In this document: piece after piece, positions 12,016 to 39,948 of the stretch
How the letters are laid out: each line of letters opens with the position of its first letter
How positions within the stretch are numbered: the first letter of the stretch is position 1
Source of the DNA: Acuticoccus sediminis
GTDB taxonomy: Bacteria > Pseudomonadota > Alphaproteobacteria > Rhizobiales > Amorphaceae
Length of the DNA: 64,000 nt
Reading direction: 5' to 3'
NCBI RefSeq assembly: GCF_003258595.1
Contig: NZ_QHHQ01000006.1
Span: 186,001 to 250,000, forward strand
Notes under the pieces: model-generated
Told to the model about the DNA's origin: nothing
Seen by the model: the letters and a program-made list of their open reading frames with translations, nothing else
Database searches by the model: none
Translations under genes and position numbers: made by a program

Positions 12016-12128
12016 CGCAGCGGCCGGCCGGGACCGCCCGGGCCGGCCATTTCCCCGGCGCGGCACCGCGCCGGGCCGCGACCCTCCCGGTCATCCCCGG
12101 CAACAAAGGCGGACCCGCAGCGGTCCGA

Positions 12129-12656
12129 GTGCGTGTGGTACGGTTTCTCGAGCGATTTTGTGCAGGCACGGAGGCCGTCGCCGGCCTGCTCCTGGCGCTG
12201 GTGACGGTTCTCATCGTGGTGTCGGCGGTGGGCCGGTACCTCTTCGCCGTGCCGGTGCCCGACTCCTTCGACCTGTCGCGGCTCCTCATCGGCGCCGCGG
12301 TGATGTGGGGCTTTGCCGCGCTCGGCTTCCGCGGCTCGCACATCAAGGTCGAGATCTTCGCCGAGGCCCTGCCGCGCCCGGTCCGGCGGGTCGTCGACGC
12401 GTTCGCCTGGACTCTCGTCCTCGTCTTCGTCGTCCTCCTGGCGTGGAAGATGTTCGCCCGCGTCGACCGGGCCTACAGCGGCGGGGAGGCGACGTTCGAC
12501 CTGCGCCTCGTGGTGTGGCCGCTGCTCGGCGTCATCTGGCTCGGCGCCGCCGCCGCGGTGCTCACCGTCGCTGCCCGGCTCGGCCTGATCATCCTGCGCG
12601 GCGACACCCTGGACCATGCCGAGCGCATCGACCAGGACGACGAGGCGCACGGCTGA
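12129..12656 (+). CDS. dctQ: TRAP transporter small permease (DctQ family)
   Basis: A four-helix small membrane subunit of about 175 residues that pairs with DctM. Hydrophobic segments lie at LLLALVTVLIVVSAVGRYLF, LLIGAAVMWGFAALGF, WTLVLVFVVLLAWKMF and the final GVIWLGAAAAVLTVAARLGL. The start is uncertain: there is no ATG at a suitable place, and GTG at 12,129 or 12,135 begins VRVVRFLERF. The stop overlaps the dctM start by one base (TGATG), a translational coupling typical of TRAP operons. Confidence 0.8.
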   Translation: MRVVRFLERFCAGTEAVAGLLLALVTVLIVVSAVGRYLFAVPVPDSFDLSRLLIGAAVMWGFAALGFRGSHIKVEIFAEALPRPVRRVVDAFAWTLVLVFVVLLAWKMFARVDRAYSGGEATFDLRLVVWPLLGVIWLGAAAAVLTVAARLGLIILRGDTLDHAERIDQDDEAHG

Positions 12657-13948
12657 TGGCGCACGCTGATCTCGTTGCCGCCGGCGGCTTCGTCGCGCTC
12701 TTCGTCATGATGGCGCTGCGGGTGCCGATCGGCATCGCCATGGGGCTCGTCGGCGTGTTCGGCTTCGCCGCCGTACGCGGGTTCGGCCCGGCGCTGAACC
12801 TCCTGACCACGTCGCCCATCCGCGTCATCGCCGACTTCAACCTGTCGCTGATCCCCTTCTTCATCCTGATGGGCGTCTTCGCCACCAACTCCGGGATGAG
12901 CCGGGAGATGTTCCGCGCCGGGCAGGCCTGGCTCGGCCGGTTCCGCGGCGGCCTCGCGCTCTCCACCATCGCCGCCTGCGCGGGTTTCGCCGCGATCTGC
13001 GGCTCCTCCGTCGCGACCGCCGCGACGATGACGAAGATCGCGCTCCCCGAGATGCGGCGGTTCGGCTACCCCGAGGACGTCTCCTCCGGCGTCATCGCCG
13101 CGGGCGGCACGCTGGGGATCCTCATCCCGCCGTCCGTGGTGCTGGCGGTCTACGCCTACATCACCGAGCAGGACGTCGGCGTCCTCTTCGTGGCGGGCAT
13201 CATCCCGGGCCTGATCGCGATCCTCTTCTACATGGCGGCGGTCCGGCTCGCGCACCGGTCGTCGCTGCCGGAGGGGACTCCGTTCGACCTCAGCGAGGGG
13301 TTCGCCTCGCTGTCGGGGATCTGGGCGGTGATGCTGCTGTTCGTGCTGGTGATCGGCGCGATGTACTTCGGCGTCGTCACGCCGACGGAGGCTGCCGCGG
13401 TCGGCGCGCTGCTGACGATGCTGATCGGCGTCCTGCGCGGCCGGCTCGGCCCGCGCCTCATCATGGCGAGCCTCACCGAGGCGCTGCGGACCTCGGTCGC
13501 GATCTACACGATCCTCATCGGCGCGGTCCTCTTCGGCTACTTCCTCGCCATCACCCGCACGCCGCAGAAGCTGACGGAGTTCCTCGTCGGCCTCGACGTC
13601 GGTGCCTACGGCACGCTCGCGCTGATCCTCGGGTTCTTCCTGCTCGCCGGGTGCATCCTCGACGCGATGGCGATGATCATCCTGCTGGTGCCCATCGTCT
13701 TCCCGGTGATCCAGGGGCTGGGGTTCGATCCCATCTGGTTCGGCATCATCATCGTCGTGACGGTGGAGCTGGGGCTGATCACCCCGCCGGTGGGCATGAA
13801 CGTCTTCGTCATCAACACGATCGCGCGGGACGTGCCGCTGCAGACGATCTTCAAGGGGATCCTGCCGTTCGTGCTGGCCGATATCCTGCGGCTGATCCTC
13901 TACATCGCCTTCCCGGCGATCGTCCTCTTCCTGCCACGCACGATGTGA
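12656..13948 (+). CDS. dctM: TRAP transporter large permease (DctM family)
   Basis: A 430-residue inner-membrane subunit with about twelve hydrophobic segments, forming the Na+-coupled transport channel of the TRAP system. Family hallmarks are IPFFILMGVFATNSG, the AICGSSVATAATM segment, AAGGTLGILIPPSVV and PTEAAAVGALLTM, with PVGMNVFVIN near the C-terminus. It starts by TGATG overlap with dctQ and ends 8 bases before the DUF3237 gene. Confidence 0.9.
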   Translation: MAHADLVAAGGFVALFVMMALRVPIGIAMGLVGVFGFAAVRGFGPALNLLTTSPIRVIADFNLSLIPFFILMGVFATNSGMSREMFRAGQAWLGRFRGGLALSTIAACAGFAAICGSSVATAATMTKIALPEMRRFGYPEDVSSGVIAAGGTLGILIPPSVVLAVYAYITEQDVGVLFVAGIIPGLIAILFYMAAVRLAHRSSLPEGTPFDLSEGFASLSGIWAVMLLFVLVIGAMYFGVVTPTEAAAVGALLTMLIGVLRGRLGPRLIMASLTEALRTSVAIYTILIGAVLFGYFLAITRTPQKLTEFLVGLDVGAYGTLALILGFFLLAGCILDAMAMIILLVPIVFPVIQGLGFDPIWFGIIIVVTVELGLITPPVGMNVFVINTIARDVPLQTIFKGILPFVLADILRLILYIAFPAIVLFLPRTM

Positions 13949-14500: not shown

Positions 14501-15394
14501 CTACGCCGCGGCGGCGGTGCTGAGCGGCAGCTTCAGGCCGTAGAGCCTGATGGCGTTGTCGCGCAGGACCTTGCGGGCCGGAGCGTCGCGCAGGCCGAGC
14601 GCGTCGAACTCGATCCGCGCGCGCTCCAGGTCCACCACCGGGTAGTCCGTACCGAACAGCACTTTGTCCTGACCGAAGGTGTTCATGTAGTGGACGAACT
14701 TCTCGTCCCAGTGCTTCGGCGCGTAGGCGTCGGTGCCGATGAAGACGTTCGGGTGCTTGTAGGCGACCGCGATCATCTCCTCGGTCCACGGCCAGCCGAT
14801 GTGGATGCCGACGAGCTTCAGGGTCGGGAAATCGCAGGCGATGGTGTCGAGGGTGATCGGCCGGCCGACGCTCTTCAGCGGCCGCTCGTCGGAGTAGCGC
14901 AGGCAGTGGCCGACCTGCATCTGGATCGGCACGCCCAGCTCGCAGCACTTGGCGTAGATCGGGTAGTAGCGCGCGTGGTCCGGCGCCATCTCGAACCAGT
15001 GCGGGTAGAGGTGCGCGCCGACGAAGCCGTATTCCCTGACGCCGCGCTCGAGCTCGGCGAGACCGTCCATGCCCTCGGTCGGGTCGACGCCGGCGAGGCC
15101 GGAGAAGCGGCCCGGGTACTTCGCGCACATCGCCGCCACCTTCTCGTAGGGGATGTGGCGGTGGATCTTGTGCATCTTGCTGCCCGCCTTGGTGGCGATC
15201 AGGAAGCAGTGCTCGACCCCGGCGCGGTCCATCTTCTCGAGAAAGGCGTCCTCGGTCAGGCCCTTGATGCGGCCTTCCTCGGCGCCGATCTTCTCGCGGA
15301 TGAACGTCTCCGCCCATCCTCGGCGCTCGAGTTCCGGATCGGCGAACTCGTAGTTCACCACCGCGTCGATCGCCATCACCCGGTTTTGCTGCAT
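14501..15394 (-). CDS. Amidohydrolase-2 family protein lacking the HxH metal pair
   Basis: A 297-residue TIM-barrel protein of the amidohydrolase-2 (ACMSD/LigW-like, PF04909) group. The first strand, where HxH is expected, reads AIDAVVNYEF (residues 8-17), so both first-shell His are missing. Later landmarks remain: VGIHIGWPWTEEM (His) and FGTDYPVVD (Asp). It may use a reduced metal site or be non-catalytic. The start at 15,394 is chosen because the barrel begins there; upstream in-frame sequence is Ala/Pro-rich. It is the last gene downstream of the Dpp-like importer and cysteine hydrolase, on the same strand. A paralogue with HxH intact lies at 26,122-27,000. Confidence 0.8.
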   Translation of the reverse strand: MQQNRVMAIDAVVNYEFADPELERRGWAETFIREKIGAEEGRIKGLTEDAFLEKMDRAGVEHCFLIATKAGSKMHKIHRHIPYEKVAAMCAKYPGRFSGLAGVDPTEGMDGLAELERGVREYGFVGAHLYPHWFEMAPDHARYYPIYAKCCELGVPIQMQVGHCLRYSDERPLKSVGRPITLDTIACDFPTLKLVGIHIGWPWTEEMIAVAYKHPNVFIGTDAYAPKHWDEKFVHYMNTFGQDKVLFGTDYPVVDLERARIEFDALGLRDAPARKVLRDNAIRLYGLKLPLSTAAAA

Positions 15395-15607
15395 TGTTCT
15401 CGTGTCCTGATCGTCCGCGTGGCGCGCCGTCGGTGCGTTGCGGCGCGATGCGGGAGGGGTTGGAGCGGTCGCGGCGGCGGGGTTGCCCGCCTCGTCCGAG
15501 GCCGCCCGTGTCACTGCGTGGAGCGTCCGGTCCGGCCCTCCGCGGTCCGTGGCCGGCGTCTCCTGGAATGTCGTGCCCGGGCCGGAGGGTCCGGGCGGCG
15601 CCGCGGC

Positions 15608-26121: not shown

Positions 26122-27000
26122 TCATCCCCTCCCGGATGGCGCCAGGCCGAGGGCCCGCACGGCGTTCTCCTTCAGGATCAGCGGGTGGACCTCCTCGCGG
26201 AAGCCGGCGGCCCGGAAGTCCTCGATCCATGCGTCGGGCGCGATCAGCGGATAGTCGGTGCCGAACAGCATCTTGCGCTTGAGCTGCGTGTTCGCGAACT
26301 GCACGAGCTGTGGCGGAAAGTACTTCGGCCGCCAGCCCGAGAGGTCGATGTAGACGTTCGGCTTGTGCAGGCAGACCGACAGCGCCTCGTCCTGCCACGG
26401 CCAGGACGGGTGCGCGATGATCACCGTCATGTCCGGGAAATCGGCGGCGACGTCGTCGAGGTGCATCGGGTTGGAGTACTTCAGGCGCAGCCCGCCGCCG
26501 CCCGGCATTCCCGTGCCGATCCCCGAATGGCCGGAGTGGAAGAGCGCCGGCAGCCTGTGCTCGGCGATCACCTCGTAGAGCTTGTAGGCCATAGGGTCGT
26601 TGGGGAAGAAGCCCTGCAGGGTGGGGTGGAACTTGAAGCCCCTGATGAGCCCGGCCTCGATCAGCTCGCGTGCCTCGCGCACGCCCATCATCCCCTTGTG
26701 CGGGTCGATGGAGGCGAACGCCATCATGATGTCCGCGTTCTCGGCCGCCGCCTCCGCCACCTCGAGGTTGGAGATGCGCCGGTTGCCGATCGTCGACTCG
26801 CTGTCGACGCAGAACATGACGAGCCCGATCCTGCGCTCCCGGTAGTAGGCGATCGTCTCGGCGATGGTCGGCCGCTCGCCGACCTTGAAGTATCGGTTCG
26901 CCGCGTCCTCGTAGGGCTGCCAGAACGTGTCCGCCGGCTGCCGGCAGGAGCGCTCGGCGTGCGTGTGGACGTCGATGGCGACGAGGTCGTCGATGTTCAT
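26122..27000 (-). CDS. Amidohydrolase-2 family metal-dependent hydrolase
   Basis: A 292-residue TIM-barrel of the same group as the gene at 14,501, but with the metal pair intact: H12 and H14 in AIDVHTHAERS. Further ligands are GFKFHPT, LFHSGHSG, IIAHPSWPWQDE and FGTDYPLIAP. Family members are decarboxylases, hydratases or lactonases of aromatic or dicarboxylic acids. It is the third gene of a minus-strand operon with the hydroxyacyl-CoA dehydrogenase and the crotonase, 26 bases downstream of the latter, so it may act on the same ring-cleavage or beta-oxidation route. Confidence 0.87.
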   Translation of the reverse strand: MNIDDLVAIDVHTHAERSCRQPADTFWQPYEDAANRYFKVGERPTIAETIAYYRERRIGLVMFCVDSESTIGNRRISNLEVAEAAAENADIMMAFASIDPHKGMMGVREARELIEAGLIRGFKFHPTLQGFFPNDPMAYKLYEVIAEHRLPALFHSGHSGIGTGMPGGGGLRLKYSNPMHLDDVAADFPDMTVIIAHPSWPWQDEALSVCLHKPNVYIDLSGWRPKYFPPQLVQFANTQLKRKMLFGTDYPLIAPDAWIEDFRAAGFREEVHPLILKENAVRALGLAPSGRG

Positions 27001-27026
27001 GGGCTTATCCCTCCGTCTAGCGCGGG

Positions 27027-27809
27027 TTAGTCCCGCGTCACCTTTCCGGCCCGCTTCTCCAGGAAGGCGGCGAGCCGTGCCTGCGTCTCGGGCGAGCCCT
27101 CCGCGAAGGAGGCCGTCAGGGACTCCATCATCAGACCCGTCTCCGGCGCGCTGGCGGCGATCCGGGGGAGGGACTGGATGATCGCGAAGTTGCTCTCGGC
27201 CGAGTTGGATGCGATCCGCCGGGCGAGGTCGACGGCGAGCGCGCGGCCCTCGCCGTCGGCCACCCGGTAGTGGCTGAGGCCGAGTGCGAGACCCTCCTCC
27301 GAGGACAGCGTGCGGCCGGTCAGCATCAGCTCCATCACTCGGTGCGCGCCGATCAGCCGGCTGATGCGCACCGAGCCGCCGCCGCCGAGGAAGAGCCCGC
27401 GCTGCCCCTCCGGCAGACCGTAGTAGGCGGACGCCTCGGCGACGCGCACGTGCGTGGAAGCGGCGAGCTCGAGCCCGCCGCCGACCACCGCGCCGTGCAT
27501 CACCGACACCACCGGTATCATGCCGAACTCGATCTCGTGGAAGGCCCGGTGCCAGGCGCGCGAGTGGGTGACCGAGGCCATCGGGGTGTGGATCGACGTC
27601 ATTTCGGAGAGGTCGAGACCGGCGCAGAAGTGCGGTCCGGCCGCGTCCAGCACCGCCGCCTTCACGCCCTCCGGCGGGGCGGCGAAGAAGGCTGCGAGGC
27701 CCGCCACCGTCTCCATGTTGAGCGCGTTCCGCTTTTCGGGGCGCGACAGGGTGAGGATCGCGACCTCGTCCTCGACGGTCAGCGAGAGGGAGCCCGGTAG
27801 GCTGTCCAT
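27027..27809 (-). CDS. Enoyl-CoA hydratase/isomerase (crotonase) family protein
   Basis: A 260-residue crotonase. The oxyanion-hole segments are GPHFCAGLDLSEM and HGAVVGGGLELAAS. The active-site Glu region is LPEGQRGLFLGGGGSVRI, with one Glu in the hydratase position and a Gly-rich loop replacing the second. It probably hydrates or isomerises an enoyl-CoA. ATG at 27,809 is 11 bases after the stop of the hydroxyacyl-CoA dehydrogenase gene, giving two consecutive beta-oxidation-type steps in one operon. Confidence 0.88.
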   Translation of the reverse strand: MDSLPGSLSLTVEDEVAILTLSRPEKRNALNMETVAGLAAFFAAPPEGVKAAVLDAAGPHFCAGLDLSEMTSIHTPMASVTHSRAWHRAFHEIEFGMIPVVSVMHGAVVGGGLELAASTHVRVAEASAYYGLPEGQRGLFLGGGGSVRISRLIGAHRVMELMLTGRTLSSEEGLALGLSHYRVADGEGRALAVDLARRIASNSAESNFAIIQSLPRIAASAPETGLMMESLTASFAEGSPETQARLAAFLEKRAGKVTRD

Positions 27810-27820
27810 GGGCGCGGGCC

Positions 27821-28771
27821 TCAGGGAAGGGCCTTGGCGGCCGCCTTGTCGCGCACCAGCTCGATGAGCAGGCGGTTGCGCGCCTCCATCATCGCGTCGA
27901 CGTCGCGGGAGGCGAGCTCCTCGGCGACGCCGTCGGCCAGGGCGTCGACCATCGCGGCGTCGAAGGTCGGGTTGCCGAGTTCGGCCCACATGTCCGTCGT
28001 CGCCTTGCCGAGCGGGCCCTCGAGCAGCCCCCTGATGCCGCCGGGGCCGCCGGAGAGGTGGATGTTGAGGAAGGGGCCGAGGAGCGCCCAGCGCAGGCCC
28101 GGACCGTGGGCGATCGCGGCGTCCACGTCCTCCACGCTGGCGATCCCGGACTGCACGATGTGGAACGCCTCCCGCCACAGTGCGATCTGCAACCGGTTGG
28201 AGACGTGGCCGCGCGCCTCCCGCTTCAGGTGGATGGGGTGCTTGCCGATCGCGCGGTAGAAGTCCATCGCGCGGGCCACGACCTCGGGCGCCGTCGCCGC
28301 GCCGCCGCCGACCTCCACCAGCGGGATGAGGTGCGGCGGGTTGAACGGGTGGGCGAGGATGACGCGCTCGGGGTGCCGGGCGCAGGCGTCCTGGAACTCG
28401 CTCACCATGATGGTGGACGTGCTCGTCGCGAGGATCGCGTGCTCGGGGGCGGCCTCGTCGAGCGCGGCGAAGAGCGTGCGCTTCATGTCGACCCGCTCGG
28501 GACCGTTCTCCTGGACGAGATCGGCACCCTCGGCGGCCTCCTCCGGCGAGGCGAAGAAGGTGAGCTTGCCGGGATCGGCGGTCGCCGCGAGGCCGATCTC
28601 GGTCAGCGCCGGCCAGTGTGCGGCGACCGCTGCGCGCAGTCGCTCCTCGGCGCCGTCGGCCGGGTCGGTCGCCGTCACCGTGAGGCCCTGCGCCAGGAAG
28701 TTGCTCACCCAGCTCGCTCCGATGACGCCGGTGCCGATCACCGCCACCCGTCCGATCGTACGCTCGCTCAT
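27821..28771 (-). CDS. 3-hydroxyacyl-CoA dehydrogenase family protein, NAD-binding
   Basis: A 316-residue dehydrogenase. Residues 8-35 form the Rossmann motif (AVIGTGVIGASW), and the catalytic region is LAHPFNPPHLIPLVEV with the active-site His, followed by a helical C-terminal domain. It resembles the L-carnitine dehydrogenase/3-hydroxybutyryl-CoA dehydrogenase group, so the substrate could be a 3-hydroxyacyl-CoA or a free 3-hydroxy acid. It is the first gene of the operon with the crotonase and the amidohydrolase. ATG at 28,771 follows GGAGGACGGAG-like sequence. Confidence 0.87.
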   Translation of the reverse strand: MSERTIGRVAVIGTGVIGASWVSNFLAQGLTVTATDPADGAEERLRAAVAAHWPALTEIGLAATADPGKLTFFASPEEAAEGADLVQENGPERVDMKRTLFAALDEAAPEHAILATSTSTIMVSEFQDACARHPERVILAHPFNPPHLIPLVEVGGGAATAPEVVARAMDFYRAIGKHPIHLKREARGHVSNRLQIALWREAFHIVQSGIASVEDVDAAIAHGPGLRWALLGPFLNIHLSGGPGGIRGLLEGPLGKATTDMWAELGNPTFDAAMVDALADGVAEELASRDVDAMMEARNRLLIELVRDKAAAKALP

Positions 28772-28864
28772 CTCCGTCCTCCCAACGTCGTCCTTTTGCG
28801 AAACTCCATACCACCAAGCGCGGCGGTGCAAACCAACCCCCGGCTGCGGCCGGCGCGAGGCGCA

Positions 28865-28894
28865 AACGAAAACGGGCCCCGCGTGGGGGCCCGT
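28865..28894 (-). terminator. Rho-independent terminator after the lactonase gene
   Basis: A perfect 9-base stem ACGGGCCCC/GGGGCCCGT (28,872-28,880 and 28,886-28,894) with a 5-base loop is followed on the minus strand by TTTTCGTTTG. It lies directly downstream of the exported lactonase gene and closes the proposed mevalonate operon. Confidence 0.8.
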
Positions 28895-28918
28895 CACGTC
28901 TCGATCCGCCGCCGGCGG

Positions 28919-29950
28919 TCAGTCCTGGTAGGCGTAGGGCGTGGAGGCCGGCGCGAGCGCCTTGGCGTGGAAGATCGTCGAACCTTCGCCGCCGTCCCAG
29001 TCGTTGGTGAAGATGTACATGTCGTCGGTGCCCGGCTTGATCACCATCGACGTGGTGCGAAGGTTGTGCCCCTCGTCGCGGCCGGGGACGAGGATCTGGC
29101 CGATCGGGAAGCCGTTCTTGTTGAACACCATGATGCGCCCCTGCGTGTACATGGCGACGTAGACGTTGCCGTCCTGGTCGGTGCGCAGCGAATCGGGCGC
29201 CGGGCCGGTGAACTGGTAGGCGACCACGGCGCCGAACGGGGCGACGGTGGTGGCGTTCGCCAGGCTCACCTTGTGGAGCCGGCCCTTGGCGAGCTCGGTG
29301 AACCAGAGCGTCTTGCCGTCCGGGCTGAGGCCGATGCCGTTGCCGATGGCGACGTTCGGGATCACCTGAACCGGCTCGCCGCCCTCGGGTCCGACGTAGT
29401 AGACGCCGCCGTCCGGCCGGGTGGAGCCGCCCTTGAAGTCGGTGAAGTAGAACCCGCCGTCCCTGTCGAACACGAGGTCGTCCGCGAGGTAGCCGGCGCT
29501 GCGCGGAACGATCTCCTCGACCGATGCGCCGTCCGGGGACACCTTCACGACGGAGCCCTCGTCGTCGAAGTTGCCGAGCTCGGCGACGTAGAGCGTTCCG
29601 TCCTTGTCGACCTCGATGCCGGCGGGGCGGAGCTCGTTCTTGCCGAGCACTTCGCTGAGCTGCATGTCCGGCGTCAGGCGGAAGATGCGCCCCTCGAACA
29701 CCTCGCAGAAGATGAGGTCGCCGTTGGGCGCGAACACCGGCCCTTCGAGCTGCATGCCGTCGTCGGAGACCTTGAACCACTCCTTCGCGGTGATCGTCGG
29801 CAGGCTCTTCTCGGCGGGCGGGATCGGCACCGGGCTCTTCATGTCCGCGGTGACGGGGAGGGCGGGAACGTCGCCGTCAGCGGTTTGAGCGTGGGCGGCG
29901 AGGGCTGGCGCGAGGCACAGGGCCGCGATCGCACAGAGGGTGCGTTTCAT
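28919..29950 (-). CDS. Exported SMP-30/Drp35-like lactonase, candidate mevalonolactonase
   Basis: A 343-residue six-bladed propeller with a clear Sec signal peptide (KRTLCAIAALCLAPALAAHAQ), so it should be periplasmic. Metal-site landmarks of the SMP-30/gluconolactonase/Drp35 family are LEGPVFAPNGDLIFCE, LADDLVFDRDGGFYF, GNGIGLSPDGKTLWF and the later PDSLRTDQDGNVYV. Family members hydrolyse lactones in a Ca2+- or Zn2+-dependent manner. It is the last gene before a terminator and follows a TRAP importer by 113 bases on the same strand, downstream of HMG-CoA reductase. I infer that it may open mevalonolactone outside the membrane before uptake. The reaction is not proven by sequence. Confidence 0.82.
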   Translation of the reverse strand: MKRTLCAIAALCLAPALAAHAQTADGDVPALPVTADMKSPVPIPPAEKSLPTITAKEWFKVSDDGMQLEGPVFAPNGDLIFCEVFEGRIFRLTPDMQLSEVLGKNELRPAGIEVDKDGTLYVAELGNFDDEGSVVKVSPDGASVEEIVPRSAGYLADDLVFDRDGGFYFTDFKGGSTRPDGGVYYVGPEGGEPVQVIPNVAIGNGIGLSPDGKTLWFTELAKGRLHKVSLANATTVAPFGAVVAYQFTGPAPDSLRTDQDGNVYVAMYTQGRIMVFNKNGFPIGQILVPGRDEGHNLRTTSMVIKPGTDDMYIFTNDWDGGEGSTIFHAKALAPASTPYAYQD

Positions 29951-30063
29951 CACTTTCCTCCAGGTGTTTGTTGTTGGCTCGGGTGGCGGTCGCACGCGGG
30001 GCGCGGCCACCTCTGCGTCGGCAACTGGCGGGTCCGCCGGCGCGTGGCCGGCGGACCGTCGCG

Positions 30064-31377
30064 CTAGTTGACCATCAGTGCCGGCAGGAAGGTCGCAAGC
30101 TTGGGGAAGGCGACCAGGATCAAGAGGCCGACGAACTGAAGAAGGAAGAACGGCAGGATACCGCGATACACCGTCGCCATCGTGAGCTGAGGCGGCAGCG
30201 TGGCCTTGATGTAGAAGAGCGTGTAGCCGAACGGCGGCGAGATGTAGCCCATCTGGATCGTCATCGCGAAGAGGACGCCGAACCACACCTGATCGAAGCC
30301 GAGGCTGTGAACCACCGGCAGGAAGACCGGCACCGTGAGCAGGATGATGCCGATCTCGTCGAGCACGGTGCCCAGGAAGATGAGGATCAGCATCATCGCC
30401 GCGAGCACCAGGTAGGGGCTCACTTCGAGACCCTCGATCGCGCCGAGCAGCGCGTCGGCACCGCCGAGCGAGGTGAAGATCGCGACGTACGCCTTCGCGC
30501 CCACCGTGATCCAGAGGATCATCGAGGTGGCCTTCAGCGTCTCCATCGACGCGTCCGTCAGCATCGACAGGCGCAGCTTGCCCCGCAGCGCCGCCGCCAG
30601 CGCCGCGCCGGCGACACCGACGGCCGCCGCCTCGGTCGGCGTCGCGATGCCGAAGAAGATCGACCCCAGCACCATCACGATGATTGCCGTCGGCAGGATC
30701 AGCGTCGTCAGCACGCCGAGCTTCTTGCGCCAGGTGACGTCCGGCATGTCGGCAGGCGCGGGCGCCTTCGTCGGGTCCAGCCAGGCGGAGATGAGGATGT
30801 AGCCGGTGTAGAGGGTGGCGAGCAGGATGCCCGGAACGATGCCGGCGATCAGCATGGTGCCGATCGAGACCTGCGCGGTCACCGCGTAGACGATCGTCAG
30901 GATCGATGGCGGGATCAGGATGCCGAGCGTGCCCGAGGCGCAGATGGTGCCGGTGGCGAGCTTCGGATCGTAGCCGCGCCGCAGCATCTCCGGCAGCGCG
31001 AGGATGCCCATCGCCGTCACCGCCGCGCCGACGACGCCGGTCATCGCCGCCATGACGACGCAGATGACGACGGTGCCCACCGCGAGACCGCCGCGCAGGC
31101 GGCCGAACCACATCTCCATCGCCCGGTAGAGATCCTCGATCACGCCGGAGCGCTGCAACAGGATCGCCATGAAGATGTAGAGCGGGATGGCGAGCAGGGA
31201 CTCCGACCGCATCGTGTCGAAGATCTGCAGGACGACGATGATGAGGGCGTTCGGGTCCCAGAAGAGGACGATGAAGAGGATCGACAGGCCGCCGAGGACG
31301 AAGGCGACCGGAAGGCCGGTCAGGAGGAAGATGGCGAGTCCTGCGAACATCGCCACCAGGATGACGTTAGGGCTCAC
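30064..31377 (-). CDS. dctM: TRAP transporter large permease (DctM family), proposed mevalonate importer
   Basis: A 437-residue membrane protein with about twelve segments. Hallmarks are CASGTLGILIPPSILTIVYA, PTEAAAVGVAG and YISPPFGYTLFYIK. It shares a four-base overlap with the upstream dctQ gene and is the transport channel of the TRAP importer encoded next to HMG-CoA reductase. Substrate assignment rests on context only. Confidence 0.9.
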   Translation of the reverse strand: MSPNVILVAMFAGLAIFLLTGLPVAFVLGGLSILFIVLFWDPNALIIVVLQIFDTMRSESLLAIPLYIFMAILLQRSGVIEDLYRAMEMWFGRLRGGLAVGTVVICVVMAAMTGVVGAAVTAMGILALPEMLRRGYDPKLATGTICASGTLGILIPPSILTIVYAVTAQVSIGTMLIAGIVPGILLATLYTGYILISAWLDPTKAPAPADMPDVTWRKKLGVLTTLILPTAIIVMVLGSIFFGIATPTEAAAVGVAGAALAAALRGKLRLSMLTDASMETLKATSMILWITVGAKAYVAIFTSLGGADALLGAIEGLEVSPYLVLAAMMLILIFLGTVLDEIGIILLTVPVFLPVVHSLGFDQVWFGVLFAMTIQMGYISPPFGYTLFYIKATLPPQLTMATVYRGILPFFLLQFVGLLILVAFPKLATFLPALMVN

Positions 31378-31913
31378 AGGGCCTCCGGCGCGTTGGCATC
31401 GTTTTCGAGCGCGTCAGTGTCGCCGAAGAGCACGCGCAGCCATTCGACCAGCGCCTGCAGGAAGAGTAGCACGAGCGAGAGCGGGATCACGAACTTCACC
31501 GGCCAGATGGGCGGGTTCCAGGTGGTGAACGACGTCTCGCCCAGCTCCCAGGACTGCACCGCGAACGGCCAGGCGTAGTAGAGAAGGATCAGCGCGAACG
31601 CCCCGATGATCGGGAAGTTCACGATGTCGAAGGCCCGGTTGAGCCACTGGGGCGCCGAGTGGCGCACCAGATCGAGGTTCACGTGACCTTTGATGTGGAG
31701 GAGGTACGGCCCGCCCAGAAGGAAGAACGGGCCGAACAGCAGCGTGGCAAGCTCCAGCCCCCAGCTCGACGGCGCGCCGAACCCGTACCGGGCCACGACC
31801 GCGTAAAGCATCACTGGCACGATCACGAGCATCAAGAGGCTCGCGAGCTTGTAGAACAGCCAGTTGACGTTCGTCACGGCCGTGGCGAAAGCGCTGATGA
31901 CTTGGGGCATCAC
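31374..31913 (-). CDS. dctQ: TRAP transporter small permease (DctQ family)
   Basis: A 179-residue small subunit with four hydrophobic segments: YKLASLLMLVIVPVMLYAVV, LLFGPFFLLGGPYLL, VNFPIIGAFALILLYYAW and FVIPLSLVLLFLQALVEWL. Both the length and the LLHIKGHVNLDLV loop after the second segment are typical of the family. It is 31 bases downstream of the binding-protein gene and overlaps dctM by four bases. Confidence 0.88.
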   Translation of the reverse strand: MMPQVISAFATAVTNVNWLFYKLASLLMLVIVPVMLYAVVARYGFGAPSSWGLELATLLFGPFFLLGGPYLLHIKGHVNLDLVRHSAPQWLNRAFDIVNFPIIGAFALILLYYAWPFAVQSWELGETSFTTWNPPIWPVKFVIPLSLVLLFLQALVEWLRVLFGDTDALENDANAPEAL

Positions 31914-31944
31914 ATGAGCCTTGCTGGAAGAAGACGGGGCGGCG

Positions 31945-32991
31945 TTAGCCGAGGAGCCCCATCTCCTCCATCAGAGCGACCTGGGAGTCGAGGATCTTCT
32001 TGGCGAGCGCGTTGCCCTTCGTGGCCTGCTCCCAGAGCTCCTTGGCCTTCGGGCGCGACGCGACGACGTCCTCGTTCGACAGCTCGAGCACCTCGACGCC
32101 CTGCTCCTTGAACGCGGCGAGGGCGCTCTCGTCGGTCTTCACCTTGTTCTGCTCGTAGGACTCGGCCGTCTCCTTGGCCGCCTCGGCGAGTGCGTCGGCG
32201 AAGCCGTCCGGCAGCTGCTTCAGCGCCGCGGCGTTGGCGACGTAGGAGGTCGACGTCGTCGGCTGGTGGACACCCGGCAGGATGATGAACTTCGCCACCT
32301 CGCCGAGACCGGCGTCGAGGTTGGCCTGCAGGTCACCGCGGTCGGCGATGTCGATCAGGCCCTTGTCGAGCGCGGAGTAGACCTCGGAGGTCGGCAGCGG
32401 CGACACCTTCACGCCGAAGCCGGACATGACGGCCGAGGCGAGACCCACGAAGCGGCCGTTCTTGCCGGCGAACTGCGAGATCTCGGTGATGCGGACCTTG
32501 GAGTGGATCGGCTCCTGGCCATAGACGGACGGGGCGATGTAGGAGAGGCCGGCCGGAGCGTAGGCTTCCTTGGCCATCTCGATGCCGCCGTGGTCGTAGA
32601 ACCAAGAATTGTACTGCGCCGCCTCGGGGAAGCCGAAGGGGATCGTCGAGGTGAAGGCCAGCGCCGGGATCTTGCCGGCCTCGTAGCCGTCGAAGGTCTT
32701 CATCATCTGGAAGGCGCCGCCGCGAACCGCGTCGAAGGCCTGCGCCGGGGGGACGATCTGGCCGGCCGAGAAGAGCTGGATCTCGAAGTCGCCGCCCGTC
32801 TTCTCGCCGACGAGGGTCACGAAGTCCTCTTCGAACTGGAGCGGGGTCGTGCCGCCGTCCCACAGCGCCTGCATGCGCCACTTGACCTTCTGGCCCTGCG
32901 CGATGGCGGGGGCGGCGAGCGGGCCGGCCGCGGCCATGACGGCGGCGCCACCGGCGAGCTTCACGAGCGTGCGGCGATTGATATTCGTCAT
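31945..32991 (-). CDS. dctP: TRAP substrate-binding protein (DctP family), proposed mevalonate receptor
   Basis: A 348-residue receptor with a twin-arginine-type leader (NRRTLVKLAGGAAVMAAAGP), so it may be exported folded by Tat. The mature start is KVKWRMQALWDGGTTPLQFEE. A YGQEPIHSKVRITEISQFAG segment corresponds to the ligand-pocket hinge, and the conserved carboxylate-binding Arg occurs in the following region (GKNGRFVGLAS). It starts 208 bases after HMG-CoA reductase, possibly with its own promoter. Mevalonate-binding TRAP receptors near HMG-CoA reductase genes have, as I recall, been reported in other alphaproteobacteria, which supports the assignment. Confidence 0.85.
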   Translation of the reverse strand: MTNINRRTLVKLAGGAAVMAAAGPLAAPAIAQGQKVKWRMQALWDGGTTPLQFEEDFVTLVGEKTGGDFEIQLFSAGQIVPPAQAFDAVRGGAFQMMKTFDGYEAGKIPALAFTSTIPFGFPEAAQYNSWFYDHGGIEMAKEAYAPAGLSYIAPSVYGQEPIHSKVRITEISQFAGKNGRFVGLASAVMSGFGVKVSPLPTSEVYSALDKGLIDIADRGDLQANLDAGLGEVAKFIILPGVHQPTTSTSYVANAAALKQLPDGFADALAEAAKETAESYEQNKVKTDESALAAFKEQGVEVLELSNEDVVASRPKAKELWEQATKGNALAKKILDSQVALMEEMGLLG

Positions 32992-33199
32992 TCTATCGTC
33001 CTCCCTGAGGATCTCTTTTGAGAATCGGGTCTTGCTGGAATTCGCAACTGATTGGGCAATTGCATAGGTCGAGAGTGGAGACCCTCGACCTTTTCGTCGC
33101 GGTTGGGGACGGAATTGTCGCGGCTGGCAAAGGACTTAACGCACCAACGCGACACGTCCTGGCGGCCGCGCCGGGCGCGGCCGTTCCGGGACGCAGCGC

Positions 33200-34492
33200 T
33201 TAGCGCGACTGCTCCAGAAGCTCGCGCGCCTTGTCGGTGCGCACGTCGCCGAGGCGGGCGAGTTCGGCCGCGATCCGCTCGATGTCGGCACCCGTGGCAC
33301 CGGCCGCGATGGCGATGTTGCGGGCGTGCAGCGCCATGTGGCCGCGCTGGATGCCTTCCGTCGCGAGCGCGCGAAGGGCGGCCATGTTCTGCGCGAGGCC
33401 GACCGCGACGATGATCTCACCGAGGTGCGACGCGCTCTTGACGTTCATGACGCGCAGCGCCGCCTGGGCCGCCGGATGCGTCTTCGTGGCACCGCCGACG
33501 AGGCCGACGGCCATCGGCATCTCGAGCGTGCCGACGAGACGGCCTTCCTTGTCCTCTTCCCACGTCGTCAGCGAGGTGTACTGACCCGAGCGTGCGGCGT
33601 AGGCGTGGGCACCCGCCTCGATGGCACGCCAGTCGTTGCCGGTCGCGACCACCACCGGGTCGACGCCGTTCATGATGCCCTTGTTGTGCGTCGCGGCACG
33701 GTAGGGATCGATCCGGGCGAACTCGTAGGCGTCGAGGATGCCGTCCATGATGCGGCGGCCGGAGAACTCCTTCGTCGCCAGCGACTGCTCGGTCAGCGTG
33801 ACCGTGGCACGGGAGAGGCGCAGGTCGGCCAGGTTGGACAGGATGCGCAGACGCACCGAGCCGCCCGTCACCTCCTCAACGATCGGGGCGACCGCTTCGG
33901 CCATCGTGTTGACGGCGTTGGCGCCCATCGCGTCGCGCACGTCGACGAGGAGGTGCATGACCACCATCGGACCGCGGCGCGACTCGGGGAAGACGTGGAC
34001 TTCGATGTCCTTGCAGCCGCCGCCGAGCTTCACCAGGAAGGCGTCGCGCGAGTTGGCCGTCTCGATGATCCGCTCCTTCGCGCCGAGGATGCGCGAGCGG
34101 GCACCGAAGGGGTCGGTGACGCCGATCACCTGCACCTGCGCGCGCATGACCGGCAGCGTGGAGGAGGTGACGAAGCCGCCGTTGTCGCGCGCGATACGCG
34201 CCATGTACGACGCGGCCGCGACCACCGACGGCTCCTCGACGGCCATCGGGATGAGGATGTCGTCGCCGTTGATGGTGAAGTTCGTCGCAACGCCCATCGG
34301 CATCTCGAAGATGCCGATCACGTTCTCGATCATGCCGTTCGCACGCTCGACGGTGAGAACGCCCTGGCCCGCGAGCGCGGCGCTGTCACCCTGCGACAGG
34401 CCGGTGGCGGTCGCGAGCTGATCGAGGCGCTCATTGGGGGCCTTGTTGCGGTACCCCTCCAAACGCGAGCTTATTTTTTGAGCCTGATCCAT
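33200..34492 (-). CDS. mvaA: Class II hydroxymethylglutaryl-CoA reductase
   Basis: A 430-residue soluble enzyme, the size of degradative Pseudomonas mevalonii HMG-CoA reductase. Active-site signatures are present: [14 protein letters not shown] (Glu), [11 protein letters not shown] (Lys), [16 protein letters not shown] (Asp) and [11 protein letters not shown] (His), with [13 protein letters not shown] for substrate binding. No membrane domain is present. With an importer and HMG-CoA lyase adjacent and no mevalonate kinase, it probably runs oxidatively, turning mevalonate and CoA into HMG-CoA with NAD+. ATG at 34,492 follows GGAAAGG; the in-frame extension to 34,561 lacks conserved residues. 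It is the first gene of the minus-strand operon. Confidence 0.93.
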
Positions 34493-34550
34493 TGCGCCTT
34501 TCCAGTCCGTCTCTTGCGCGCTTCTTCCAAGTGTTGTCTGCTTACCTAAC

Positions 34551-34615
34551 GGGACAATCAAGGGACAGTTGGTCAGTTAACTGGCGCGACTGTGCCAGTT
34601 AATAAATGGGACAAT
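34551..34615. promoter_or_regulatory. Repeat-rich divergent control region of the mevalonate locus
   Basis: Three copies of GGGACAAT/GT lie at 34,551-34,558, 34,562-34,569 (GGGACAGT, 11 bases apart) and 34,608-34,615. Between them is a perfect 9-base inverted repeat TTAACTGGC/GCCAGTTAA (34,577-34,585 and 34,594-34,602), overlapping a CAGTTAACTG palindrome at 34,574-34,583. The region is AT-richer than its surroundings and separates HMG-CoA reductase from the MocR regulator gene, so it is the likely MocR binding site. MocR proteins often use direct plus inverted repeats. Confidence 0.6.
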
Positions 34616-34618
34616 TTG

Positions 34619-36001
34619 GTGAGGGGACGGCCTGCATCGCGTGTCGATGCCGTGGTAGATGCAGTCGGAGCGCGGCTTCGAAGCGAGTCATGGAGCGTCG
34701 GGCAGCGCCTGCCGTCCATCCGAAAGGCGGCGCTCGACCATGGTGTGTCAAAAAATACCATGGCCGAAGCCTATGACAGGTTGGTCGCAGCCGGCCTCCT
34801 CGAGGTCCGGGCAGGGTCGGGCTATTATGTGGTCCGCAGGGACAGGGTGCCCGTTACGTCGGCACCGCAGCCTCATGTCAGTGCAGCCGTCGACCTCGTC
34901 TCGCTCCTGCGCGAACAGCTCGACAAGAGCTACGCCGTGCGCCCCGGCGACGGCCGCCCGCCGGCCTCCTGGATGGAAGGCTCGGAGCTGCGCCGCTGGT
35001 TCACGGCGAGCCGCGCCGTGGAGGGCGCCGACACCTTCGGCTACGGCTCCTCATACGGCCTCGCGGCCCTGCGCGAGCGGCTGCGCGTCATGCTGCTGGA
35101 GCGCTCGATCAGCGCCGCGGAGGACGGTGTCCTCCTGACCCACGGCGCCAACCACGCCCTCGACCTCATCATCCGCCACTTCCTGCGGCCGGGCGACACC
35201 GTGCTGGTGGACGACCCCGGCTATTACCCGCTGTTCGGCAAGCTCGCCCTCGCCGGGATCCGGATGGAGGGGGTGAAGCGCAACGAGGACGGGCCGGACG
35301 TCGAGGAGCTGAACGCCAAGCTCGCCCTCGGGCCCAAGGCCTTCTTCACCCAGAGCCAGGCGCACAACCCGACCGGATCCTCCCTCGCTCCGTCCGTCGC
35401 CTTCTCGATCCTCCAGGCCGCCGAGCGGTCCGGGATGATCATCGTCGAGAACGACGCCTTCGCCGACATCGTCGCGCCGACGCTTACCCGCCTCGCCGCG
35501 CTCGACCAGCTCCAGCGCGTCCTCTACGTCGGCACCTTCTCCAAGACGCTGTCGGCGAGCCTGCGCTGCGGCTTCGTCGCCGGCTCGCCGCCGGTCATCT
35601 CCGCGCTGCGCGACATCAAGATGCTGACGACGGTGGCGAGCTCGGACTACGTCGAGGCCTTCGTCCTTGGCCTCATCGAGCGCGGCCACTACCTGAGGCA
35701 CCTGCGCCGACTGCGCGCGCGCATCGAGAAGTCCCACCTCAAGACCCTGACCGCGCTGGAGGGGGCCGGCCTCAGCGTGAAGGCGCCGAAGGTTCCCGGC
35801 TTCTACGTCTGGGCCGAATTGCCGCCACGGGTGGACGAAATGGAACTCGTGAAGGCCGCCGCCGAACGCAGCATCTTCCTCGCGCCCGGAAGCCTCTTCC
35901 GGCCCAACCGCATCCCCCTCGAGCGCGGCGCCATCCGCGTCAACGTCGCCTACGGCGCCGACCAGCGCCTCATCGACTTCCTCAAATCCGCACTTCGCTG
36001 A
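34619..36001 (+). CDS. MocR-type PLP-dependent transcriptional regulator
   Basis: A 460-residue GntR/aminotransferase fusion. Residues about 5-75 form a winged helix (VGQRLPSIRKAALDHGVSK), then a linker, then a type I aminotransferase-like domain with the PLP-lysine region GTFSKTLSASLRCGF and the AHNPTGSSL and VDDPGYYPLF segments. It probably binds PLP plus an effector rather than transaminating. GTG at 34,619 is preferred because the proposed operators extend to 34,615; GTG at 34,592 or TTG at 34,616 are alternatives. It is divergent from HMG-CoA reductase and 14 bases before HMG-CoA lyase, making it the likely regulator of mevalonate use. Confidence 0.88.
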   Translation: MRGRPASRVDAVVDAVGARLRSESWSVGQRLPSIRKAALDHGVSKNTMAEAYDRLVAAGLLEVRAGSGYYVVRRDRVPVTSAPQPHVSAAVDLVSLLREQLDKSYAVRPGDGRPPASWMEGSELRRWFTASRAVEGADTFGYGSSYGLAALRERLRVMLLERSISAAEDGVLLTHGANHALDLIIRHFLRPGDTVLVDDPGYYPLFGKLALAGIRMEGVKRNEDGPDVEELNAKLALGPKAFFTQSQAHNPTGSSLAPSVAFSILQAAERSGMIIVENDAFADIVAPTLTRLAALDQLQRVLYVGTFSKTLSASLRCGFVAGSPPVISALRDIKMLTTVASSDYVEAFVLGLIERGHYLRHLRRLRARIEKSHLKTLTALEGAGLSVKAPKVPGFYVWAELPPRVDEMELVKAAAERSIFLAPGSLFRPNRIPLERGAIRVNVAYGADQRLIDFLKSALR

Positions 36002-36015
36002 ACCCGGAGCTACCC

Positions 36016-36912
36016 ATGCCTCTTCCCGACCGCGTCACCATCGTTGAGGTCGGCCCGCGCGACGGCCTGCAGAACGAGAAGGCCGTCGTCCCCGCCGCCA
36101 CGAAGGCGGAGCTGATCGACCGCCTCGCGGAGGCGGGCTGTACGGTCATCGAGGCCGGCGCGTTCGTCTCCCCCAAATGGGTGCCGCAGATGGCCGGCAC
36201 CCCCGAGGTGCTCGCCGCGATCCACAGGAAGCCCGGCGTGCGCTACCCCGTCCTGGTGCCGAACCTCAAGGGGCTGGAGGCGGCCATCGCCGCCCGGTGT
36301 GACGAGGTCGCCGTCTTCGCCAGCGCCTCCGAGGCATTCAGCCAGAAGAACATCAACTGCTCCATCGCCGAGAGCCTCGAACGCTTCGAGCCGGTGATGG
36401 AGCGCGCCCGCGAGGCCGGCGTGAAGGTCCGCGGCTACGTCTCGTGCGTCCTCGGCTGCCCCTACCAGGGGGACGTCCCGGTCGGCGACGTCGCCGCGGT
36501 CTCCAGGCGCCTCCACGAGATGGGTTGCTTCGAGGTCTCGCTCGGCGACACGATCGGCCGGGGGACGCCGGGCGCGGCGCGGGCGATGACGGCGGCTGTC
36601 GCCGAGGTGGTGCCGGTCGGGGCGCTCGCGCTCCATTTCCACGACACCTACGGCCAGGCTCTCGCCAACATCCACGCCTGCCTCGAACTCGGTATCTCGG
36701 TCCTCGACTCGGCGGTCGGCGGCGTCGGCGGCTGCCCCTACGCCAAGGGAGCCACAGGGAACGTCGCGACCGAGGACCTCGTCTACATGCTCCACGGCAT
36801 GGGCATCCCGACCGGCATCAACCTTGCCGCACTCCTGGAAGTGTCCCGCTTCGTGAGCGACGCCATCGGCCGTCCCGTGCCGTCCCACCTTGCGGCGGCG
36901 ACGGCCGCCTGA
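36016..36912 (+). CDS. mvaB: Hydroxymethylglutaryl-CoA lyase
   Basis: A 298-residue TIM-barrel aldolase of the HMG-CoA lyase/DRE-TIM group. It has VEVGPRDGLQNEK (catalytic Arg and metal Asp), HFHDTYGQALANI (metal His) and the signature GGVGGCPYAKGATGNVATED with the catalytic Cys. It cleaves HMG-CoA to acetoacetate and acetyl-CoA. It lies 14 bases after the MocR regulator on the same strand, so the regulator and lyase form one operon opposite the reductase operon. Together with the reductase it makes a short mevalonate degradation route. Confidence 0.93.
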   Translation: MPLPDRVTIVEVGPRDGLQNEKAVVPAATKAELIDRLAEAGCTVIEAGAFVSPKWVPQMAGTPEVLAAIHRKPGVRYPVLVPNLKGLEAAIAARCDEVAVFASASEAFSQKNINCSIAESLERFEPVMERAREAGVKVRGYVSCVLGCPYQGDVPVGDVAAVSRRLHEMGCFEVSLGDTIGRGTPGAARAMTAAVAEVVPVGALALHFHDTYGQALANIHACLELGISVLDSAVGGVGGCPYAKGATGNVATEDLVYMLHGMGIPTGINLAALLEVSRFVSDAIGRPVPSHLAAATAA

Positions 36913-37328
36913 GGGCGGGGTCGGGCCGGTGGCGATGGCCGCGGCCGGAATGAGCGCGGCCGGCGTGGACGTGGCTCGAAACCTGTCTTGACCGGCAGGC
37001 GGCGCCGTGCCCCGAAGGCGAGGGGCGTTCCTCCCCTCGCGCTCCCCTCCACCTCGCCGGCAGGCAGGCGTTCAGGACAGACGGCCGCGAAGGGCGGCCG
37101 GCTGGCCTGAACACCTGGCACCACGCTGGGCCGGGCTGCAGGCTCGTCAAGGGCAAGGGCTTCGCCCCGTCCTCGCCATGCTCGCCCTGCGGGCTGCGCG
37201 TGGCTCCGGGCGGCCCTTGACGACCCCGCATCCCTGAGAGCCGGGTCGGTCGGGCGGGGCGGCGCAGACGAAAACGGCGGGGCGGCCGTGAGGCGCCCCG
37301 CCGTCGTCATTGCCCGTGGTGGCGGAGG
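36913..37328. repeat. 416-base non-coding gap with nested inverted repeats
   Basis: It contains no credible gene. Two structured blocks are visible. GTTCAGG/CCTGAAC (37,070-37,076 and 37,106-37,112) encloses a CGGCCG-based stem. GTCAAGGGC/GCCCTTGAC (37,146-37,154 and 37,213-37,221) encloses a further stem built on GCCATGC/GCGTGGC and GCCCTGCGGGC. They could be REP-like repeats or a structured RNA. A terminator for the opposing nuo operon follows at 37,266-37,304. Other copies cannot be searched for here. Confidence 0.45.
37266..37304 (-). terminator. Rho-independent terminator after nuoF
   Basis: A perfect 11-base stem ACGGCGGGGCG/CGCCCCGCCGT (37,274-37,284 and 37,294-37,304) with a 9-base loop is followed on the minus strand by TTTTCGTC. 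It lies 24 bases after the nuoF stop and ends the nuoA-F transcription unit. Confidence 0.8.
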
Positions 37329-38697: not shown

Positions 38698-39948
38698 TCA
38701 CTTCTTCATAAGGTCCTGAGCCTGCTCGACCCAGCGCTCGCGGTCGATCCGGCCCTTGAACGCCAGATAGGCGTTCACCCATTCCTTGTTCGACTGCGTC
38801 CAGGCGGCAAGCTGCTCGAGCTTGTAGACGCCGAGTTCGCGCAGCGTCTTCTCGATCACCGGGCCGATCCCGGAGATCCGCTTCAGGTCGTCGGGCGCGC
38901 CGGCCTCGTCGAGCGTCATCGCGTGCGGCCGGTCGCCGGCGGCGTCGGCGCGTGCGCCCGCGTTGGCATCCGGCACCGGCGGGAAGGACGTGGCGGCGGG
39001 GGCCGGCTCTTCGGGTGCGGGCTCGGGGGAGGTCGCCTCGGGTGCGGCCTCGGCGGCCGGTGCGTCGGGGGAGGCGGTCTCGGCTTCCGCGGCGGTGATC
39101 GGCGTCTGCGCGGCGTCGCCACCCGGAGCGGCGCGGTCGGCCTCCTCGGCGCTCACCGGCGCACCGTCGGTCTCGACGCGGTCGGACGGGGCGCCGCCCT
39201 CGGAGCGGGTCGCCTCGACCTCGACGCGGTTGTCACCGTCCGGGCGGCCGATGTTCTGGCCGGCGGCCGCGGGGGAGGTCGGGTCCACGTCGGTGTCCGG
39301 CGCGCCGTCGCCGGGCGCCTCGGTGCCGGCAGGCTGCGGATACTCGGGGACTTCGGTGAGCGAGGTCGCGCCGGTGATCGGCTCGGACCCCTTGCGCGTG
39401 CTCTGCGGTCCGGGGGTCGGCGTGCCGCCCTTCTCCAGCGTGTCGAGGAGGGCGTTGAACGTCTCGGCGGTCAGGTCCTCGTAGGTGTCGGCGCCGATCT
39501 GCACCATCGGCGCGTTCACGCAGGCGCCCGCGCACTCCACCTCTTCCCAGGAGAAGCGGCCGTCCTGCGACAGCTCGAACGCGTGCGACGCGATGCGCTT
39601 CTTGCAGATCGACATGATGTCGTCCGACCCGCGCAGCATGCACGGCGTCGTGCCGCAGACGCCGATGTGCGCGACCGTGCCCACCGGCTGCAGCTGGAAC
39701 ATCGTGTAGAAGGTCGCGATCTCGAAGACGCGGATGTAGGGCATCTCCAGCATGTCCGCGACGAGGCGGATGGCCGGCTCCGGAAGCCAGCCGTGGTGCT
39801 GCTCCTGCGCCTTCCACAGGATCGGGATGACGGCGCTCGCCTGACGACCTTCGGGGTAGTTCTTGATCTTCGCCTTGGCCCATTCGAGGTTCTGCGGCGT
39901 GAACTCGAACGCGGCGGGCTGTTGTTCGGCGAGGCGCCTTACGGCCAT
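38698..39948 (-). CDS. nuoE: NADH-quinone oxidoreductase subunit E with C-terminal extension
   Basis: A 416-residue subunit, about twice the length of E. coli NuoE. Residues about 1-200 form the thioredoxin-like domain with the [2Fe-2S] ligands in [12 protein letters not shown] and [10 protein letters not shown]. Residues about 210-350 are low-complexity, rich in Ala, Pro, Glu and Thr. The last 70 residues form a helix-hairpin-helix-like domain ([19 protein letters not shown]). Such tails are known in some Rhizobiales complex I; their role is unclear. The gene starts 223 bases after nuoD. Confidence 0.93.

Follow-up and report, generated by a model that had tools for sequence, protein, structure and literature searches.

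A predicted catabolic locus for mevalonate and mevalonolactone with an exported Drp35-type lactonase in Acuticoccus sediminis

The window analysed here is a 64-kb stretch of the 7.76-Mb genome (97% complete) of Acuticoccus sediminis, on contig NZ_QHHQ01000006.1. Seven of its genes, together with a terminator-like hairpin, form what is probably an inducible locus for the catabolism of mevalonate, from which cholesterol and other isoprenoids are built, and of its cyclic form, mevalonolactone. On the minus strand, transcription runs from a class II 3-hydroxy-3-methylglutaryl-coenzyme A (HMG-CoA) reductase through dctP, dctQ and dctM of a tripartite ATP-independent periplasmic (TRAP) transporter to a lactonase and the hairpin; the plus strand carries a MocR-type regulator and an HMG-CoA lyase, 14 bases apart. 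An earlier reading of the same DNA, the original prediction, had described these genes with their order, strands and coordinates, all of which hold, with profile matches to the expected families:

28871..28895, minus strand: terminator-like hairpin 3' of the lactonase gene (10-pair stem, T tail)
28919..29950, minus strand: exported Drp35-type beta-propeller lactonase, predicted periplasmic mevalonolactonase (PF08450; Drp35 nearest; leader judged by eye)
30064..31377, minus strand: dctM, TRAP large permease (TIGR00786, 328.7 bits; PF06808)
31374..31913, minus strand: dctQ, TRAP small permease (PF04290)
31945..32991, minus strand: dctP, TRAP receptor, predicted mevalonate receptor (PF03480; within the order sample, subfamily confined to reductase loci)
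33200..34492, minus strand: class II HMG-CoA reductase, degradative (TIGR00532, above cut-off)
34551..34615, no strand assigned: predicted MocR operator (four half sites; core conserved across loci)
34592..36001 (listed start), plus strand: MocR/GabR-type regulator (GntR and Aminotran_1_2 domains)
36016..36912, plus strand: HMG-CoA lyase (NF004283, 455.8 bits; PF00682)

All seven genes occur in the same order in one congener (L054), at 85-93% identity, so the arrangement is not due to chance; three more genes past the hairpin are also kept there (76-94%). Our sample contains six more genomes of the genus, all of them without reductase (E 1e-60) and without lactonase (E 1e-30), which makes the locus patchy within the genus (two of eight genomes). 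The terminator scan of 28700-37000 returned 5 sites versus 3.5 in shuffled sequence; one site taken alone therefore carries little weight.

The reductase scores 419.7 bits against TIGR00532, 'HMG-CoA reductase, degradative' (curated cut-off 259.95), and is 66% identical to the Pseudomonas mevalonii enzyme over 424 residues. In an ungapped alignment, the catalytic residues E83, K267, D283 and H381 of the latter and D146, linked to the use of nicotinamide adenine dinucleotide (NAD), are all identical in the window protein. The genome encodes IspH of the methylerythritol phosphate pathway, and a search of the whole genome gave no match to mevalonate-diphosphate decarboxylase. Since the reductase belongs to the degradative class II, IspH is present and no decarboxylase was found, the reaction is most naturally read as running towards mevalonate breakdown, and the original assignment to this class stands. 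The reaction is reversible, and the enzyme might instead work biosynthetically, turning HMG-CoA into mevalonate for isoprenoids or export. We rejected this alternative, which is scarcely credible given IspH and the missing decarboxylase, the equivalog score above its cut-off, the retained NAD-linked D146 and the importer and lyase in the gene set.

HMG-CoA lyase yields acetoacetate and acetyl-CoA. Among the seven genes we found none for the activation of acetoacetate (the rest of the genome was not searched for one). The locus is thus not fully self-contained, a term of the original prediction that was too strong.

To place the locus among its relatives, we collected degradative reductases (E up to 1e-60) from 397 genomes of the same order, of which 37 were positive, and counted neighbours within 8 kb; contig ends truncate six of these loci. 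A MocR gene lies on the opposite strand in 30 (divergent in 29, convergent in one, L163) and a lyase gene in 21. The transporters vary: TRAP in 19 loci, TctA in one, ATP-binding cassette (ABC) systems of the Liv type in four more and of the ribose type in two, with no transporter of these four kinds recognised in the other 11. A Drp35-type lactonase occurs in two. Eight further reductase loci from outside the order, drawn from 398 genomes of the phylum, contain a divergent MocR in seven cases, TctA in six (in L039 at only 35% identity) and a lyase in two, with neither TRAP nor lactonase; overall, the MocR and reductase genes diverge in 36 of 45 loci. The core therefore consists of reductase and MocR, the transporters interchange and the lactonase is an optional accessory.

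Two of the order reductase loci have a peculiarity of their own. In L165 (11679-13799) and L045 (13657-15621), a ribose-type ABC permease domain is fused in one frame to a strictosidine-synthase-like/SMP-30 beta-propeller domain, as judged by Pfam for the former and by similarity and the lack of a stop for the latter. A second, weaker match of this kind follows. These loci thus place another lactonase-like fold beside a degradative reductase.

The TRAP set of the locus is complete, and its receptor DctP starts with a twin-arginine-like leader, NRRTLVK...AIA-Q, judged by eye. With at most five candidates scored per genome, the 397 order genomes hold 19 homologues of this receptor at 58-100% identity; the next ones are at 35% or less (426 bits, then 170). 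All 19 adjoin a degradative reductase, so in the order sample the receptor subfamily is specific to reductase loci. From this linkage we infer that mevalonate is the ligand of DctP. A related acid could be imported in its place, such as 3-hydroxy-3-methylglutarate, pantoate or a branched hydroxy or keto acid; the nearest solved receptors include one named for lactate, TTHA0766, which is the closest, and one for keto acids. Yet imported 3-hydroxy-3-methylglutarate would make the reductase unnecessary, the subfamily keeps exclusively to a mevalonate-degrading enzyme in the order sample, and in other reductase loci the same place is taken by transporters of unrelated families (TctA, and ABC systems of the Liv and ribose types), as expected if what the loci have in common is the reductase's substrate. 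We hold the import of a related acid to be quite improbable and retain mevalonate as the predicted ligand. Reports of mevalonate-binding TRAP receptors, which the original prediction mentioned, did not turn up in our literature search.

The MocR protein combines a GntR domain (PF00392, residues 19-80) with an aminotransferase-like domain (PF00155, residues 133-460), in which, by eye, an SKT motif offers the lysine that would hold pyridoxal 5'-phosphate (PLP). Upstream of its gene lie four half sites: GGGACAAT (34551), GGGACAGT (34562), an inverted ACTGTGCC (34589) and again GGGACAAT (34608). Because the listed MocR start, 34592, falls within them, translation probably begins a little further downstream. 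The operator core, ACTGTCCCTTGATTGTCCC, recurs in related loci, even where dctP and not the reductase is the first gene. Across 44 rows (43 loci and the window), a 12-base core scores at least 10 of 12 upstream of MocR in 36, versus 20 of 2200 base shuffles; this core was chosen from the same loci, some of them near relatives. With up to three mismatches, a 19-base core (34551-34569) occurs a single time in the genome, its backward control not at all. We predict that MocR binds the repeated GGGACA(A/G)T operator. Its frequent divergence from the reductase, the conserved operator and the single genomic core all argue for the local MocR control suggested earlier, and the uptake and degradation of mevalonate under a local MocR regulator appear, from sequence, close to certain.

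The best matches of the lactonase in the Protein Data Bank (PDB) are entries of Drp35 from Staphylococcus aureus (2dg0 and 2dso, E 4e-86), the second of which is the D138N mutant. An AlphaFold2 model, built from 17 sequences, has a predicted local distance difference test score (pLDDT) of 89.9; its first 12 Foldseek matches are all Drp35, at 43-44% identity, and the next one is at 27%. Residues E48, D138, D139, N185, D236 and S237 of Drp35, its metal and active-site positions, are all six identical in the window enzyme. Its N-terminus, judged by eye, is a Sec-type leader, MKRTLCAIAALCLAPALAAHA-Q. In the study of Drp35 (PMC6052127), the enzyme hydrolyses DL-mevalonolactone at 478 µmol/min/mg, whereas the best other tabulated lactone reaches 3.6, more than 100-fold slower; dihydrocoumarin and 2-coumaranone are also accepted, and the drp35 gene adjoins mevalonate-pathway genes in some staphylococci. 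The window lactonase is thus most likely a mevalonolactonase, predicted to share this strong substrate preference. Statin lactones, whose opening would activate a reductase inhibitor, were considered as a substrate and dropped, with nothing in their support.

The single contig scan used only the lactonase as its anchor. A five-protein alignment retrieved 243 relatives, the best 80 of which were kept; they represent 79 distinct loci, 24 of them 15 kb or shorter. A reductase lies within about 3.2 kb of the lactonase in eight, from Alphaproteobacteria, Gammaproteobacteria and Clostridia. Three of these carry TRAP (Aurantimonas, Marinobacter and Arhodomonas) and four a TctA-like transporter (Rhizobium, Brucella endophytica, Xanthomonas massiliensis and Pseudomonas MF4836; by PF01970 in L061 and L072, by similarity in the other two). 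The eighth, from an uncultured Clostridia bacterium, has neither and holds lyase, reductase and lactonase together. Since half of the linked loci carry TctA instead, we discarded the idea that the lactonase partners TRAP rather than the reductase. In the available stretch of the other 71 loci no reductase was found. Whole genomes were searched for 27 of the 79 loci (L058-L085 minus L082): nine carry a reductase, which adjoins the lactonase in eight; the ninth is an Acidovorax with a lactonase of the N type described below. By our own estimate, random placement in a genome of about 5 Mb would bring the two within 10 kb in about 0.4% of such genomes. The co-occurrence that the original prediction had singled out for a survey is thus found in distant taxa when counted from the lactonase, but in few loci of the order when counted from the reductase. 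By eye, leaders are present in the seven linked proteobacterial lactonases and missing from the clostridial one, which fits a periplasmic step in Gram-negative bacteria.

Position 138 of Drp35 offers a residue signature. It is aspartate in Drp35, in the window and in the nine other linked proteins. Among the 28 loci L058-L085, 16 are of this D type, eight of them linked, and 12 are of the N type, none of them linked (Fisher p 0.008, ignoring shared ancestry). In the tree, 12 unlinked rows fall into one clade (99/99); 11 belong to the N type, and for the twelfth, L087, the site has no data. The linked rows spread over several deep branches of the D part, one in the group of Drp35 itself. The signature follows the tree imperfectly, because the N-type Acidovorax row groups with one of the D type and because both outgroup rows, L086 and L088, belong to the N type.

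The lactonase could still be a mere neighbour that acts on another lactone, for instance a sugar lactone or an acyl-homoserine lactone, beside a genuine pathway for mevalonate. The SMP-30 family acts on many lactones, and most of the related lactonase loci are not beside a reductase. The seven scanned neighbours of three N-type loci (L055, L056 and L057) encode aldo/keto reductase, short-chain dehydrogenase/reductase, LysR and major facilitator superfamily proteins, which suggests another lactone substrate for that type; that Drp35 has minor substrates also speaks for this alternative. However, Drp35 is the nearest characterised relative and strongly prefers mevalonolactone (PMC6052127), linked members arise in several deep Drp35-type branches, and all ten linked proteins keep D138 where the N-type ones stand apart from any reductase. 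A different lactone is in our judgement unlikely, and mevalonolactone remains the preferred substrate. As to the N-type relatives themselves, L066 is the same as L055, L079 as L056 and L069 as L057; L064, L065, L067, L068 and L070 also belong here, many of them from Methylobacterium and its kin.

Taken together, these observations suggest the following course. The exported lactonase would hydrolyse mevalonolactone to mevalonate in the periplasm, as its relationship and gene linkage indicate; DctP would capture mevalonate and DctQM import it, as indicated by linkage. The reductase, using CoA and NAD, would then turn mevalonate oxidatively into HMG-CoA, and the lyase would split HMG-CoA to its two products, both steps being established for the enzyme families. 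Acetoacetate would be used by enzymes encoded outside the locus. MocR would bind the operator between the divergent transcripts and control this locus alone. We put the probability that the whole serves the inducible catabolism of mevalonate and mevalonolactone at roughly 80%. An exported mevalonolactonase as accessory of mevalonate catabolism is likely. The proposal that the lactonase opens its substrate before uptake is supported by the kinship with Drp35, by linkage to the reductase across distant taxa with swapped transporters and by a receptor and an operator tied to the reductase.

Several points weigh against this interpretation. The lactonase is missing from 35 of the 37 order reductase loci (six of the 37 being truncated); mevalonate can therefore be used without it. 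Mevalonolactone opens slowly unaided and could enter the cell unopened. Eight of the 16 D-type lactonases are not beside a reductase, and their eight genomes have no TIGR00532 match at E 1e-40; a D-type lactonase can thus serve without a reductase, and D138 alone does not predict linkage. The closest solved receptor to DctP binds lactate, not mevalonate, and the operator core scores 9 or less in eight of the 44 rows.

A broader view has odds only slightly better than even: that members of at least two phyla eat extracellular mevalonolactone by means of a dedicated lactonase, exported in Gram-negative bacteria, with the Drp35-type enzyme joined more than once to degradative reductase loci with TRAP or TctA, and D138 marking the members that open mevalonolactone. 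The two order loci with a permease-propeller fusion would possibly do so through a different beta-propeller domain.

Genes adjacent to the locus at 26122-28771 encode an amidohydrolase, an enoyl-CoA hydratase and a carnitine-dehydrogenase-like 3-hydroxyacyl-CoA dehydrogenase, and are conserved in the congener. We did not retain them as pathway members: they lie beyond the hairpin and have no match of at least 60 bits in 18-kb stretches of L164 and L167, two TRAP-reductase loci of the same family. Elsewhere in the window, one frame (1633-3171) encodes an SMP-30/gluconolactonase domain (29-281) followed by an isochorismatase domain (320-505), a combination that seems unusual. A second TRAP set at 10993-13948, with DctP identified by Pfam and the small and large permeases by eye from open frames, is followed by an amidohydrolase gene (14501-15514). 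At 38698-39948, a NuoE-like protein has a 2Fe-2S thioredoxin-like domain (residues 25-171) and a C-terminal extension, about 245 residues long, that matches no Pfam family.

Degradative reductases are known already, as is the mevalonolactonase activity of Drp35. Apparently new are the presence of an exported lactonase in degradative loci, mevalonate as the ligand of the receptor subfamily, and MocR with its operator: our literature search, which left out most subscription papers and is thus weak evidence of absence, found no account of mevalonate import by TRAP systems, nor of a lactonase within a degradative reductase locus. The novelty of the lactonase idea is therefore partial, since hydrolysis of mevalonolactone by the family is already published (PMC6052127) and the exported, catabolic use is what is added. 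The locus proposes together a substrate for a TRAP receptor subfamily, targets and an operator for a MocR and a role for an exported lactonase family. If this is true, the natural release of mevalonolactone and mevalonate must be large enough to feed on, and the sensors (MocR and DctP) and the lactonase may help strains that produce mevalonate.

With P. mevalonii, whose reductase and lyase are mvaA and mvaB, the locus shares its closely related degradative reductase and an HMG-CoA lyase. Here these genes are accompanied by the TRAP importer, the divergent MocR with its operator and the exported lactonase. The MocR regulons of Suvorova and Rodionov (PMC5320631) offer the same architecture of GntR and aminotransferase domains and operators of two to four repeats; in its main text, a word search for 'mevalon', 'hydroxymethylglutaryl' and 'HMG-CoA' gave no match. 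TTHA0766 (2zzv) is of the same receptor family as DctP and shares 59 of the positions that are invariant in 22 reductase-linked receptors, including R180 and D217, but differs from them at 53 others. Drp35 (PMC6052127) has the fold, family and active-site residues of the window lactonase, and in some staphylococci its gene, too, lies beside others of mevalonate metabolism. The match begins at residue 6 of Drp35, which leaves no room for a leader, whereas the window enzyme, by eye, has one; and Drp35 was studied within a biosynthetic mevalonate pathway, whereas the pathway predicted here is degradative.

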